Source: a bacterium
GTDB lineage: Bacteria > CSSED10-310 > JAJRTK01
Direction of reading: 5' to 3'
Length of the DNA: 6,879 nt
NCBI GenBank assembly: GCA_024278345.1
Contig: JAJRTK010000258.1
Coordinates: 1 to 6,879 of the forward strand
The notes under the pieces were generated by a model. It made no database searches and was not told where the DNA came from. It saw only the letters and a list, made by a program, of their open reading frames with translations. Both the position numbers and the translations under genes were made by a program. Below, in pieces: positions 1 to 6,879 of the stretch (within the stretch, counting starts at the first letter, position 1; every line of letters starts with the position of its first letter).

Positions 1-5
1 CCCTG

Positions 6-47
6 GCAGGGCTTCACCCTGCACCCACCAGGGAGCGAGCTCCCTGG
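6..47. repeat. Two tandem hairpins separated by an acccac-type linker
   Basis: Two perfect hairpins lie side by side. The first is gcaggg (6-11) pairing with ccctgc (17-22) around a 5-nt loop. The second is ccagggag (28-35) pairing with ctccctgg (40-47) around a 4-nt loop. Each is followed by acccac or cacccac, so the arrangement looks like repeated hairpin-plus-linker units. The window starts with ccctgg, which suggests that a further unit continues to the left. This is typical of dispersed intergenic palindromic repeats. A role as a transcription terminator is possible, but no T-tract follows on either strand. Confidence 0.6.
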
Positions 48-136
48 ACCCACATTCTTGTACGGTGGGCCTCGCTTATGCTCGGCGTCTCGCTTCGCTC
101 GGCCCCGCGTTTTCCCTCTTCTTTTCCTGTTTTGTC
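48..136 (-). repeat. Left copy of a dispersed intergenic repeat (core ACAAGAATGTGGGT, minus strand)
   Basis: Read on the minus strand, a purine-rich stretch beginning GACAAAACAGG (136 downward) and ending GGGAAAACGCG (107) leads, after a GC-rich insert, to the 14-nt core ACAAGAATGTGGGT (61-48). The right end of the window has the same order on the plus strand: GACAAGAAAACAAGGG, then AAAAACCGC, then ACCAGAATGTGGGT (6696-6741). The cores match at 13 of 14 bases. The left copy has an extra insert (71-102) made of the duplicated ctcgctt..gctcgg unit. Function is unknown; the boundaries given are approximate. Confidence 0.5.
71..102. repeat. Short direct repeat, ctcgctt(at/c)gctcgg, two copies
   Basis: The copies ctcgcttatgctcgg (71-85) and ctcgcttcgctcgg (89-102) lie 18 nt apart from start to start. 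They differ only by at versus c in the middle. Each is nearly self-complementary (gagc against gctc type), so each could fold into a small stem. They sit inside the left repeat element and are absent from its right-hand counterpart. Confidence 0.55.
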
Positions 137-399
137 CCGTCTTACGTGGATCCCCCGAGGAAGGTCTCCTTCAATGGTCTCGCATGTACGTATGTCAATT
201 GACGCTGCCAACTGGTATTCAAAACGCCGATGGGATCGGGGGGTCCGATACCACGTGAACGGTTACGATCCGGCTGCCACTCCACCGTTGGGGTGACCTC
301 GTATTCGACCTGCCGCCGCCCGCCTGCCGTCCTCGCCTGCCTCCCGACCGGCCCGCCACAGCCATCCCGCCCCCCCTCCATTCCACGGTCGGAGGGAAG
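103..399. other. Non-coding stretch downstream of the esterase gene
   Basis: No convincing gene is seen. Short open frames occur on both strands but lack ribosome binding sites and have low-complexity Pro/Gly/Arg-rich translations. Recognisable items are a pyrimidine-rich tract (about 109-136, part of the left repeat), a 10-bp palindrome gtcaattgac (194-203), and a weak stem formed by atcgg and ccgat around ggggt near 234-252. On the minus strand that stem is followed closely by GCGTTTTGAA, so it could be a weak terminator for the esterase transcript. The support for that is slight. Confidence 0.4.
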
Positions 400-2235: not shown

Positions 2236-2369
2236 CCGTCCCTCCCCAAATCTGATTGAACCTGGAAACCCACCGTGGTGCCCGACCGAGAATCCCCGCG
2301 GGCCGGAACGTAGCCTCTACCGGCGAAACCACCGTCTTTCCGGCTCCGGAAGCGACCCGTGCGCCGCTC

Positions 2370-3224
2370 CTAATGGTCCGGATAGGGATTCACTTTGGGG
2401 ATTCCGCCTTTCCGGCCACCTCGGTTCCCGCGACCGTCACACTCTCCATCAAACACTTCCTCGCAGAGCTTCCGCCGTTCCTCCGTACAGAAGCCGGTCA
2501 TCCGCATTTTTTGACTGCCCGCCAAGCCGCCAAGGCATTTTCGGTAGGCCGTCATGCAGCCTTTGAAGTACCCGTTCAGCGACGAGCGGACTTGGATTTT
2601 GGTCAAATGTTCCAGGGAGGGAAACTCCTGTTCCTCCTCGCCGATAAAAATCTCGCCCATGCTGAAGGCAATGGCCTTCCGTTCCTGGCGGCAAACATTT
2701 TCATGGTCGATCATGGCGATGTCGCGGAAGAGGTCAAAACTGGCTTCCCGGGTCAACAACTCACTGGGATGTGGCTTGACCACGACCTTGTAGACCGTGG
2801 AACGCATGGGGCGTCCCTTTTTGTTCACCGCCACGATGGCCAGGACCCGCCGCCCTTGCTTGCGTGGGTTTGCCACGGTGAAGTTCTTCCCGAAAACCAC
2901 CGATGTGGACGGCGACACCCCCTGGATCTTGCTGGCAAAGGCCTCCCGGGAAAAGCGGTAAGCCTCCCGATGCCCCGTGCGATCCAGGATCCGGATTGCC
3001 GACACATTCCTGAGCTCGCCAGCCGTGAAATAAATCCGCATGTAGAGCGGGTTGACATCGTCGGAGATCTCCAGGGGAATGACCTTCCCGATCTGGCGGA
3101 TCTCCGGCCCCTTCACGGGCTTCAAATACCGCCCGGCATGAGCCGTGGACACGTTACCCAGGCCCAATAGCGGCAGAAGGGCAACTCTAAGGCAAAAGCG
3201 AAAGCGGTTTGCTAAGTGGCTCAT
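2370..3224 (-). CDS. Secreted protein of unknown function, beta domain plus Cys-containing helical domain
   Basis: I do not recognise the family. The product has 284 residues with a signal peptide (arginines at the N-terminus, hydrophobic core 11-23, cleavage after AHA at residue 30). Residues 31-150 are rich in alternating hydrophobic strands (IPLEI, MRIYF, SAIRIL, VLAIVAV, STVYKVVVK) and may form a beta-sandwich. Residues 155-262 look helical and carry six cysteines (178, 223, 230, 246, 254, 262), an even number suited to disulfides after export. The last 20 residues are Gly/Arg/Pro-rich and probably disordered. ATG 3224 is chosen because AAGGA (3235-3231) sits 6 nt upstream and the signal peptide begins there; the open frame extends upstream to 3356 but through a strong hairpin. 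It is the third of three consecutive exported-protein genes. Confidence 0.7.
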   Translation of the reverse strand: MSHLANRFRFCLRVALLPLLGLGNVSTAHAGRYLKPVKGPEIRQIGKVIPLEISDDVNPLYMRIYFTAGELRNVSAIRILDRTGHREAYRFSREAFASKIQGVSPSTSVVFGKNFTVANPRKQGRRVLAIVAVNKKGRPMRSTVYKVVVKPHPSELLTREASFDLFRDIAMIDHENVCRQERKAIAFSMGEIFIGEEEQEFPSLEHLTKIQVRSSLNGYFKGCMTAYRKCLGGLAGSQKMRMTGFCTEERRKLCEEVFDGECDGRGNRGGRKGGIPKVNPYPDH

Positions 3225-3243
3225 GTCAATTCCTTTTGAAAAG

Positions 3244-3279
3244 GCTCCCGTCGCCCGCCGGACGGCGGGCGACGGGAGC
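3244..3279 (-). terminator. Strong 17-bp hairpin between two secreted-protein genes (terminator or attenuator)
   Basis: gctcccgtcgcccgccg (3244-3260) and its exact complement (3263-3279) are separated by only ga, giving a 16-17 bp perfect GC-rich stem. On the minus strand the stem is followed by CTTTTC, a short T-run, then directly by the AAAAGGA ribosome binding region of the 3224 gene. It could terminate most transcripts after the 3982-3389 gene, or act as an attenuator or mRNA stabiliser that sets different levels for the two genes. The T-tract is short for an intrinsic terminator, so the structure is certain but its role is not. Confidence 0.6.
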
Positions 3280-3282
3280 GGA

Positions 3283-3377
3283 CACAACCCAGAGAAAAGA
3301 CCGACTTTCCCTTGAGTTGTGCCCCGGCAAACGCAAGTGCCCCCAAGGCCCCGCACCGCATGGGGCTGGACACTTGC
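3283..3377 (-). repeat. Two further stem-loops in the same intergenic leader
   Basis: Between the stop at 3389 and the strong hairpin lie two more inverted repeats. gcaagtg (3333-3339) pairs with cacttgc (3371-3377) and encloses an inner stem gcccc/ggggc (3348-3352 with 3362-3366). cacaac (3283-3288) pairs with gttgtg (3316-3321). With the 3244-3279 hairpin, most of this 164-nt spacer can fold. No known riboswitch consensus was recognised. Confidence 0.4.
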
Positions 3378-3388
3378 CCAAGGGGCCG

Positions 3389-3982
3389 TCAGTAAGCATC
3401 TCCGACACAGACTGAATAGAAGTTGTCAGCGGGCATGCGCTGGCCGAACACCACAAAATATCGGTCTCCAAGCTGTTGCTGACAAGCAGACAGAGTTTGG
3501 CAAACCTTGAAGGCGAACTGGGCCTTGAGAATGGGTTCGGCAATTTCCACCAAGGTGCCTACGTGGGCAAGCTTCCGCTGGCAAGCATCGAGGAATGGGA
3601 TCATGGTGCGAACCACGAAAACGACATCGAGGCAATCCTGTCGGTGCTCTTTGTTAATCTTCGCGATTTCATCGTAATAGGCACTGACATAGGTGGGGAT
3701 AAATGTCCTGAGGAGGAGCCTCTTGTCCATGGTCTTGGAATGTTGGTCAATGGCTCGAACGGCGCGGAGGAGTATATCGGGCATCTTTTCGTCCCGAATC
3801 CAGCGCCACTCGTAACCTTGGGTCACCAGGTTGTGGTAAATAGTCTGGACTGCGGTCCTTGCCGCAAAATCGGCGGCGCGGACAGCATCGCCCTTCTGGG
3901 CTTCCGCGCCGCCGGGCTGCATCACCAGGATGCTCCCCACAAGCAGCGCCAAGACCAGCGGCATTCTTTTCTTGTTCGACAT
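3389..3982 (-). CDS. Small secreted helical protein of unknown function
   Basis: Not a family I recognise. It has 197 residues with a classical signal peptide (KKR near the N-terminus, hydrophobic LVLALLVGSILVM, cleavage after AEA at residue 28). The mature part appears mostly alpha-helical and contains five cysteines (117, 134, 161, 167, 192), including the closely spaced pair CQTLSAC. No catalytic motif is visible, and the odd cysteine number could mean a free thiol or an intermolecular disulfide. ATG 3982 is preferred: AAGGAGGT (3994-3987) is 4-5 nt upstream, whereas the in-frame GTG at 3985 lies too close to that site. It begins 40 nt after the stop of the preceding secreted-protein gene, so the two very likely share an operon. 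Location should be periplasmic or extracellular. Confidence 0.7.
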   Translation of the reverse strand: MSNKKRMPLVLALLVGSILVMQPGGAEAQKGDAVRAADFAARTAVQTIYHNLVTQGYEWRWIRDEKMPDILLRAVRAIDQHSKTMDKRLLLRTFIPTYVSAYYDEIAKINKEHRQDCLDVVFVVRTMIPFLDACQRKLAHVGTLVEIAEPILKAQFAFKVCQTLSACQQQLGDRYFVVFGQRMPADNFYSVCVGDAY

Positions 3983-4022
3983 CACGACCTCCTTGACAAA
4001 CGGAATTGGGCCACACTGGCGA

Positions 4023-4634
4023 TCAATGGCGCGGCGGGTTGTAAGAGCAAGCGCCGCCTCGATCCGACAGGTAGTAGCCCTCGTAATGGCTCCGCTCGAT
4101 GGGCGTCTGCCCTGTAAAGTTCATGCACTCGTTCATTGTGATGTTCTCGAACGAAATCTCACACTGGATCCGGTAGGGTTCCCCGCAGGTGATGTTTGGC
4201 ATGTCCTGCATGCGGATAAACACTGGGATCTCGCCGAGCAGATCGGCGATTTCGCAGTAAACGATTGCACTTGCCGTGCCGGCGGCTTCGCCGATGGCCG
4301 CGCACTTGTCGGTACACTTGAAGGCGACCTTTCGAAGGGCCGACCGAAGCCCGTGGAGATATCCTTCGGCGTAATCGACCATATCCCGTTTCCCGTAGCG
4401 GCGGGCCGTCCGCGCAATCCGTCTGGCGGACCGGCTGATCACGGCCACTAGGTCGTCGGCCGCGTCACAACCGCGGCCTCGGCTAATACTCATCCAAGCC
4501 GATTCCGTCGTTCTACTGCCAAGCTGACGACCAAGATCGTAGCTGAACGAGTCGGCTAGGGCCAAATCAGCCGTCGTCAGGACAAGCCCACACAAGAGTG
4601 CCGTCAGAACGTGACTCCAGTTTCGTGTCATCAT
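4023..4634 (-). CDS. Cysteine-rich secreted protein of unknown function, first gene of the minus-strand cluster
   Basis: Unrecognised family. It has 203 residues; residues 1-27 form a signal peptide with cleavage predicted after LALA. The mature chain has eight cysteines (56, 107, 111, 127, 150, 158, 170, 196), an even count compatible with four disulfides and including a CTDKC motif. The first half is helical and strongly basic (RSARRIARTARRYGKR, 68-83); the C-terminal quarter is Tyr-rich (HYEGYYLSDRGGACSYNPP). No catalytic signature is seen. The start is ATGATG at 4634/4631 with GAGAGG about 6 nt upstream of the first ATG; the open frame runs further up to 4913, but that stretch is not signal-peptide-like and crosses the divergent promoter region. 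It faces away from the ECF sigma gene across about 390 nt. Confidence 0.7.
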   Translation of the reverse strand: MMTRNWSHVLTALLCGLVLTTADLALADSFSYDLGRQLGSRTTESAWMSISRGRGCDAADDLVAVISRSARRIARTARRYGKRDMVDYAEGYLHGLRSALRKVAFKCTDKCAAIGEAAGTASAIVYCEIADLLGEIPVFIRMQDMPNITCGEPYRIQCEISFENITMNECMNFTGQTPIERSHYEGYYLSDRGGACSYNPPRH

Positions 4635-5028
4635 CGGATTCCTCTCTCCGTCCGTTGTGGCAATGCGGTTTGGCAAGAAGCCCCACAGGCGCCAAGATCC
4701 GCTCTTCCCCGCGAAGTGAATCAATATCGTCGGAAAACGTGGCGGACAGGTCTGCGGGATCGGGTCCGCTCTCCTTGGCAACAACCGTTTGCCAGCATTC
4801 CGCCAATCCATCCAATAACAGGATTCGGCGACGAATCCAATGCCATTCGGAAATCCACTGGACCACGGGAGCGGCCATGGGGGTGCCGATCTTTTTCTTA
4901 CGATTTTTAACAAAAAAGGGGAACTTTTCCTTCGTGGCCGGTGTATAGGTAGGTGCCATAGTATATGGGATCATCTGAGGTTGGGGAGTTCTGGATTGCT
5001 GCTACCCCAGGCCTGCCGAGGAGGCAAC
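4635..5028. other. Divergent intergenic region between secreted-protein cluster and sigma factor gene
   Basis: No convincing gene is seen here. Open frames on both strands are upstream extensions of the flanking genes without ribosome binding sites. The stretch 4889-4930 is markedly AT-rich for this DNA, with ctttttc, atttttaa and six A in a row, including a ttttt-aac-aaaaa inverted repeat (4904-4916). This resembles an UP element and leads directly into the GGAACTT box on the plus strand. No clear sigma-70 or ECF promoter was found facing the minus-strand cluster. Confidence 0.5.
4920..4950 (+). promoter_or_regulatory. Candidate ECF-type promoter upstream of the sigma gene
   Basis: GGAACTT (4920-4926) matches the -35 consensus of sigma-E-like ECF factors exactly. 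It is followed after 17 nt by TATAGGT (4944-4950), a possible though not canonical -10. An A/T-rich tract lies just upstream. Position, orientation and the common autoregulation of ECF sigma genes make it a reasonable autogenous promoter, with a leader of about 75 nt. A seven-base match can arise by chance. Confidence 0.35.
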
Positions 5029-5670
5029 ATGAGCGCACTGCGAAAGAACCGCCCCCGCACCGACATCGTGCCTCTCCAAGAGGTCGCCCGCCGCACCTAT
5101 GACGGAGTGACGGACCACCGGTTGATGGAGCTTTGTTGCGAGGGGGACAAGGGGGCCTTCAACGAAATCGTCCTGCGCTACAAAGATCCGCTGGTCAACT
5201 TCGTTTATCACCTGGTGGATGACTATGGGACAGCGAAGGACATCGCTCAAGAAGCCTTTATTCGAGCCTATTTGAATGCTCACCGCTACAGGCCCATCGC
5301 CAGTTTTTCCACTTGGCTGTACCAGATCGCGAAAAACCTTGCGTACAACGCTCTCAAAAAGCGAAAGCGGTATCAAAAGACGTCCATCAACGACCCCATC
5401 TTTCCTGACTCGCCGGGCTTCACCTTGGATCTGGAAGACGGAAAGCGCAAGCCCGACGAAGAACTTGAAAACAGCGAGCTGGGCAAGCTCATCTTCTCGG
5501 CATTGAGAACGATTCCCCACAAGTACAGGGTCCCCATCGTGCTTCGGGACATTGAGGGATTCAGTTACGAGCAGATCGCGGGGATTCTCCGCTGTCCAAA
5601 AGGGACGGTCAAGTCGCGTATCAATCGTGGCCGACGCATGATGAGGGCGAAATTGGAACCGTTTGTGTGA
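5029..5670 (+). CDS. ECF (RpoE-like) RNA polymerase sigma factor
   Basis: A 213-residue sigma-70 family protein with both ECF domains. Region 2 (about 33-112) contains DKGAFNEIVLRYKDPLVNFVY, DIAQEAFIRAY (71-81) and FSTWLYQIAKNLAYN (93-107), the core-binding and -10-recognition segments. After a charged linker (about 113-150), region 4 (151-208) contains IPHKYRVPIVLRDIEGFSYEQIAG and a helix-turn-helix ending GTVKSRINRGRRMM, which reads the -35. Regions 1 and 3 are absent, as expected for this class. It directs RNA polymerase to a dedicated promoter set, probably under control of the downstream zinc-finger protein. ATG 5029 follows GAGGAGG (5018-5024) by 4 nt; the open frame extends upstream to 4840 but without family sequence. 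A 28-30 residue N-terminal extension precedes region 2. Confidence 0.93.
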   Translation: MSALRKNRPRTDIVPLQEVARRTYDGVTDHRLMELCCEGDKGAFNEIVLRYKDPLVNFVYHLVDDYGTAKDIAQEAFIRAYLNAHRYRPIASFSTWLYQIAKNLAYNALKKRKRYQKTSINDPIFPDSPGFTLDLEDGKRKPDEELENSELGKLIFSALRTIPHKYRVPIVLRDIEGFSYEQIAGILRCPKGTVKSRINRGRRMMRAKLEPFV

Positions 5671-5951: not shown

Positions 5952-6551
5952 ATGATGGATTGTCGGACGGTCGAGAGCTGCGTTTCTCTTTTGTTAGATG
6001 GAGAACTCGACGCAAAGACGCAATGGATGGTGGAGATCCACCTCAGGCGATGTGCCTGTTGCCAGGCCCAACGTGACAGACTGGCCCACATCAAGGCATG
6101 CTTGGGGCAACAGCAGCCGGTGACGGCTCCGGAGGATTTTACTCAATGCCTCCAGTCACGCCTTCGCAGCCTTGAAAAAGAGCAACTCCTGGAATCCTGC
6201 CGCCGCCATGTCCTGCTTCGCCGCGGTTTTTTTGCAGCCGGGATTCTGGGACTGATCCTGCTTGCTGGGATCCAGTTGCTGATTCTATTCGCAGGTGGCT
6301 CCCGATCTTCCCATGACGTGGAAAACGGTCGAGCCGCCACACAACCCGTTTTGAAAAGTGGCTCCGGGGAAACAGTCGCCGAAGCCGGCCTCTATCCGGC
6401 ATACGTTTTTCCGGCGCTGAAAAATAGTGGACTTGACTTCGGTCATGGCATGGGTGAGCGCCTAACCTCCGACGCACAGGATCTTCCAATGCCGAAGACC
6501 GGCAAGACGGAAAATGACGAAGAGCGGTTCTGGACCCGTGCGGTCTACTAA
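5952..6551 (+). CDS. Membrane-anchored zinc-finger (ZAS) anti-sigma factor
   Basis: A 199-residue protein if started at the ATGATG at 5952. The N-terminus has the zf-HC2/ZAS layout: MDC with Cys4, the LLLDGELD helix segment, then VEIHLRRCACC giving His30-x3-Cys34-x2-Cys37, the zinc-site pattern of RsrA/ChrR-like anti-sigma factors. Extra cysteines are at 10 and 36. One transmembrane helix follows (FFAAGILGLILLAGIQLLILFAGG, about 93-116), then an 80-residue low-complexity segment predicted outside the cytoplasm. It presumably sequesters the adjacent ECF factor until a membrane or redox signal releases it. The frame opens earlier at ATG 5913 (13 more residues), but neither start has a strong ribosome binding site. 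The ZAS convention (Met-x-Cys) and the MM starts at 2235, 4634 and 6781 favour 5952/5955. Confidence 0.8.
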   Translation: MMDCRTVESCVSLLLDGELDAKTQWMVEIHLRRCACCQAQRDRLAHIKACLGQQQPVTAPEDFTQCLQSRLRSLEKEQLLESCRRHVLLRRGFFAAGILGLILLAGIQLLILFAGGSRSSHDVENGRAATQPVLKSGSGETVAEAGLYPAYVFPALKNSGLDFGHGMGERLTSDAQDLPMPKTGKTENDEERFWTRAVY

Positions 6552-6624: not shown

Positions 6625-6748
6625 AAGCACCACCCAAGGTCCCACCGGGGACCCCACTACCGCTTGCTGCCCCGGAGATCTCACGGAGCACGCCCGACAA
6701 GAAAACAAGGGAAAAACCGCACGGCACACCAGAATGTGGGTGGTGCTT
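6625..6748. repeat. 12-bp inverted repeat flanking about 100 nt, plus an internal hairpin
   Basis: aagcaccaccca (6625-6636) and its exact complement tgggtggtgctt (6737-6748) bracket 100 nt. Just inside the left arm is a perfect hairpin, ggtccc accg gggacc (6638-6653). The right arm overlaps the core of the right-hand repeat copy. The bracketed DNA holds no gene. It may be a small structured element or the 3' end of the anti-sigma transcript; no T-tract supports intrinsic termination. Confidence 0.45.
6696..6741 (+). repeat. Right copy of the dispersed intergenic repeat (core ACCAGAATGTGGGT)
   Basis: A purine-rich stretch from GACAAGAAAACAAGGG (6696) leads through AAAAACCGC to ACCAGAATGTGGGT (6728-6741). 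This matches, in order and orientation, the minus-strand element at 136-48, with 13 of 14 bases identical in the core. The two copies are therefore inverted relative to one another and lie near opposite ends of the window. Confidence 0.5.
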
Positions 6749-6780
6749 CGGCCTTAGGGCAGTGGAGAGTGAGAGCGGCG

Positions 6781-6879
6781 ATGATGGCGAACAGCGGCGG
6801 ACGGACTGCCGCCGATGTGAGCGGAACGCAACACGTAGAAAACAAAGGGTTTGCCGACAACCCCGCCCTAAAAGAAGAG
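6781..6879 (+). CDS. 5' end of an unidentified gene, truncated by the window edge
   Basis: An ATGATG at 6781 opens a frame of 33 codons without a stop to the last base. GGAGAG (6764-6769) and GAGAG (6771-6775, 5 nt before the ATG) can serve as ribosome binding site. The visible N-terminus (MMANSGGRTAADV...FADNPALKEE) is hydrophilic, with no signal peptide or motif, so no function can be given. It lies 229 nt downstream of the anti-sigma gene on the same strand. Thirty-three open codons in GC-rich DNA is modest evidence. Confidence 0.4.
   Translation, partial: MMANSGGRTAADVSGTQHVENKGFADNPALKEE

Follow-up and report, generated by a model that had tools for sequence, protein, structure and literature searches.

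Many ECF sigma factors control adjoining envelope genes, and modules of an ECF sigma factor and a zf-HC2 anti-sigma factor with envelope genes nearby are the described systems to which the locus analysed here comes closest. The window, by which we mean the whole of contig C182 (6,879 bases, from a genome of 6.06 Mb in 550 contigs that is about 88% complete), contains an RpoE/SigW-like ECF sigma factor gene on the plus strand at 5029–5670. Its product scored over the cut-off for the NCBIfam family sigma70-ECF and for Sigma70 regions 2 and 4 (Sigma70_r2, E 9.7e-18; Sigma70_r4_2, E 1.8e-14). The gene for a probable zf-HC2 (ZAS) anti-sigma factor lies on the same strand at 5952–6551; the protein matches PF13490 at 24.1 bits (cut-off 22.2) and displays an HxxxCxxC motif and, later in the chain, one hydrophobic transmembrane segment (HLRRCACC and LGLILLAGIQLLILFA were read). 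Divergently from the sigma gene run three minus-strand genes for putative exported orphan proteins, denoted P1, P2 and P3, downstream of which are genes for a PEMT-like membrane protein (1552–2235) and a putative esterase (400–1530). No RNA family was found in the 6,879-nt window.

P1 (4023–4634, minus strand) encodes 203 amino acids, with a predicted mature part of about 176 residues and a neutral net charge. P2 (3389–3982, minus) encodes 197 amino acids, 169 of them in the mature part, and P3 (2370–3224, minus) encodes 284, of which 254 form a mature protein with a net charge of +15. Shine-Dalgarno-like sequences are found upstream of the starts of P1 (GAGAGG), P2 (AAGGAGG) and P3 (AAAGGA). 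The start of P2 is the ATG at the 3982 end, with an in-frame GTG at 3985. A dicodon (hexamer) coding model was built from 119 long ORFs on 14 contigs of this genome. In it, P1, P2 and P3 exceeded the next-best frame by 67, 34 and 63 log units, respectively, and scored as coding like their recognised neighbours; they are real genes. The preliminary description of three adjacent minus-strand genes with signal peptides, separated by gaps of 40 nt (P1–P2) and 164 nt (P2–P3) and encoding mature proteins with 8, 5 and 6 cysteines, is borne out by the ORFs, the dicodon model and the N-termini, the cysteine counts being exact after the predicted cleavage. Antisense ORFs on the plus strand (2256–3170, 3476–4117 and 3930–4451) were rejected as shadows by the dicodon model, the scores obtained being −53, −36 and −30. 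A further minus-strand ORF of 135 residues (4567–4974) extends over the beginning of P1. Its coding signal is weak and uneven and it has no clear ribosome-binding site; it could be a small gene upstream of P1, or a chance frame.

The N-termini of all three proteins have the features of Sec signal peptides cut by signal peptidase I, with a basic n-region, a hydrophobic h-region, an AxA-type site and no later transmembrane segment. Cleavage is predicted at ALA^DS in P1, AEA^QK in P2 and AHA^GR in P3, by inspection and hydropathy rather than by SignalP. A basic residue (R, K or H) precedes the h-region in each case, and hydropathy analysis revealed no strongly hydrophobic segment in any mature part. 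We considered the possibility that the proteins are lipoproteins processed by signal peptidase II, and rejected it: the only cysteines in the signal regions (TALLC in P1 and FRFC in P3) do not fit the lipobox [LVI][ASTVI][GAS]C.

The three proteins are distinguished by their cysteine content, which amounts to 4.5, 3.0 and 2.4 per 100 residues in P1, P2 and P3, respectively. As a comparison, we applied a mechanical signal-peptide rule to 235 kb of this genome, represented by 184 proxy genes. Sixteen of the 184 were exported-like, with a mean of 0.7 and a maximum of about 2.0 cysteines per 100 residues, so that each of P1–P3 lies above all 16. The sample included no same-strand run of three exported-like genes. 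If independence is assumed (0.09 cubed, in about 5,000 genes), a few exported triples per genome would be expected by chance; the run is thus unusual, not extraordinary. The cysteine density is the stronger signal, and three neighbouring exported genes with such a cysteine content are notable.

The genome also encodes a VKOR-like and a DsbB-like oxidase (the L036/L037 pair), with one VKOR-family match, in a 492-residue frame, and one DsbB-family match over the cut-off. Oxidative folding outside the cytoplasm is therefore plausible. Matches to both families in one genome amount to two alternative oxidases for disulfide formation. P1–P3 show the export signals and the cysteine excess, and their genome the oxidase, that are circumstantial features of disulfide-bonded envelope proteins, and the disulfide stabilisation proposed earlier is plausible in view of the high cysteine density and the two oxidase genes. 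With five cysteines, P2 has at least one that is unpaired within the chain; this odd number would allow an intermolecular disulfide, although it does not show one. Free cysteines could bind metal instead. In P3, all six cysteines fall in the C-terminal part (178–262).

No family in Pfam or NCBIfam scored over its cut-off with P1, P2 or P3, PHROGs and PADLOC gave no match below E 0.06, and the matches among PDB sequences were at chance level. In single-sequence searches of 386 genomes, including eight of the same phylum, each protein retrieved only itself and weak partial matches; within those eight genomes, P3 gave one chance-level match. Pattern scans of GTDB contigs with P1 and P3 and of viral contigs with P2 and P3 revealed no relative, and neither did tblastn searches of plasmids with all three. 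There is no credible paralogue in the same genome and no similarity among P1, P2 and P3 themselves. The weak genome matches (E 7e-4 to 0.08) were rejected as relatives, being short and partial. One (L014) lies within a 566-residue transporter-like ORF, and two others (L016 and L012) span five stops and one stop, respectively; L013 and L017–L019 are located in long open frames. The novelty of P1–P3 is an absence of relatives in the libraries and genomes searched, which agrees with their previous description as unrecognised, and the absence of relatives puts their function out of reach from sequence.

Because pattern scans would miss all but close relatives, these results leave room for distant homology. 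P1–P3 might be diverged members of known families that lie beyond the reach of single-sequence profile searches, a reading to which we give slightly less than an even chance. It draws on the fact that all searches started from single sequences and that structure comparison was confined to P2; against it stand the family libraries, none of which gave a match over its cut-off, and the PDB sequences, none of which matched credibly. The single-sequence model of mature P2 comprises five helices and is of moderate confidence (pLDDT 66.8, pTM 0.66), whereas that of P3 was poor (pLDDT 42.9) and unusable. A Foldseek search of the PDB with the P2 model returned only generic helical bundles, the best at E 0.54. 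In its helical arrangement, P2 resembles the de novo designs 7mwr and 8cwy and a module of the Munc13-1 MUN domain (3swh), with Z scores of 9.7–11.3 and RMSDs of 2.7–4.8 over 121–143 residues, at 7–12% identity, which is in the chance range for helical models and implies no common function.

The gap between P2 and P3 contains a near-perfect palindrome of 36 nt (3244–3279), which is a copy of a dispersed repeat, and strong folding is predicted for the transcribed strand. With at most one mismatch allowed, the 20-nt core of this repeat, CGAYGKGAGCGGAMCNCAAC, has 404 matches in this genome; it is absent from the seven other genomes of the phylum that were searched, and a reversed control pattern gave no occurrence. 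The gap copy has three mismatches to the core and is therefore not counted among the 404; its alignments with other copies extend for about 40–65 nt at 75–90% identity. Copies in the window are located at 3244–3300 and at about 6768–6835. Most of the core matches on the contigs sampled (18 of 27) fell outside long ORFs. The repeat is possibly REP- or MITE-like, with no mobilising gene tied to it. A search of the genome for Y1_Tnp yielded one match, the single-copy locus L034 (1012–1737 on contig C390), closest to the REP-associated tyrosine transposase family NF047646 (67.2 bits, under the cut-off of 80). It carries two in-frame copies of the palindrome GGGCGGGTTCGGAACCCGCCCCTAC, and a match to the repeat core with three mismatches starts just past its stop codon (0.01 expected). 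At the ends of the window (1–140 and 6680–6760), a common AGAATGTGGGT stretch in opposite orientation was read by eye, a sign that dispersed repeats probably interrupted the assembly.

Placed ahead of P3, the hairpin may reduce or terminate transcription, and its position in the 164-nt gap weakens the claim of a single transcript. The transcription unit put forward in the preliminary description consequently holds in part: P1 and P2, only 40 nt apart, are probably co-transcribed, whereas continuation across the larger gap to P3 is doubtful.

The explanation that we favour, with confidence evenly balanced, is that P1–P3 form a gene cluster, restricted to this lineage, for Sec-exported cell-envelope proteins that fold oxidatively and act together. 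The three proteins would be exported by Sec and lose their signal peptides, and their cysteines would be oxidised by the VKOR/DsbB-type machinery to disulfides that stabilise small folds: a helical bundle in P2, a mixed fold in P1, and in the basic P3 a possible beta-rich N-terminal domain followed by the cysteine-containing C-terminal part. P1 and P2 would probably be made from one transcript, perhaps shared by P3, whose expression may be lowered by the repeat-derived hairpin ahead of it. The proteins most likely cooperate in the periplasm or on the surface of the envelope, where their role is presumably one of structure or binding and not of catalysis.

The argument for a joint function, and for the periplasmic or extracellular complex suggested in the preliminary description, is one of adjacency alone, and P1–P3 might instead be independently evolving exported orphans, neighbours by chance and without a common complex. 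We consider this unlikely: the few exported triples per genome in our own estimate, the lack of detectable similarity to each other or to any relative and the hairpin that separates P2 from P3 are all consistent with it, but it leaves unaccounted for the unusual cysteine density and the orientation common to the three genes, the P1–P2 gap of just 40 nt and the strong ribosome-binding site ahead of P2.

P1–P3 might also serve the ECF pair as its output or as a sensory arm: an envelope signal would free the sigma factor, P1–P3 would be transcribed and their products would answer or report envelope stress. This reading appears similarly doubtful. P1 divergently adjoins the sigma and anti-sigma genes, an arrangement in keeping with the local control exerted by many such factors. 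However, a GGAAC-type −35 candidate occurs just once between the two units, as GGAACTT at 4920–4926 on the plus strand (found by pattern only), and it faces the sigma gene; no GGAAC within 4635–5028 faces P1. Sigma control of P1–P3 is therefore a guess from adjacency, as is autoregulation of the sigma gene through GGAACTT a guess from the motif. The most novel proposal, in which three new protein families would build a hitherto undescribed complex outside the cytoplasm, linked by disulfides, that detects or carries out an envelope response via the ECF sigma/anti-sigma pair, is very improbable.

Should the proposal hold, a poorly sampled phylum would gain three exported protein families, and an ECF switch a candidate output; for now, P1–P3 are three real cysteine-rich orphan genes worth deeper metagenome searches. 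Unlike in known ECF sigma/zf-HC2 modules, the tie of P1–P3 to the sigma factor is here one of adjacency alone. As in those modules with envelope genes nearby, the sigma and anti-sigma genes are placed divergently from, and directly adjoin, genes for exported proteins.
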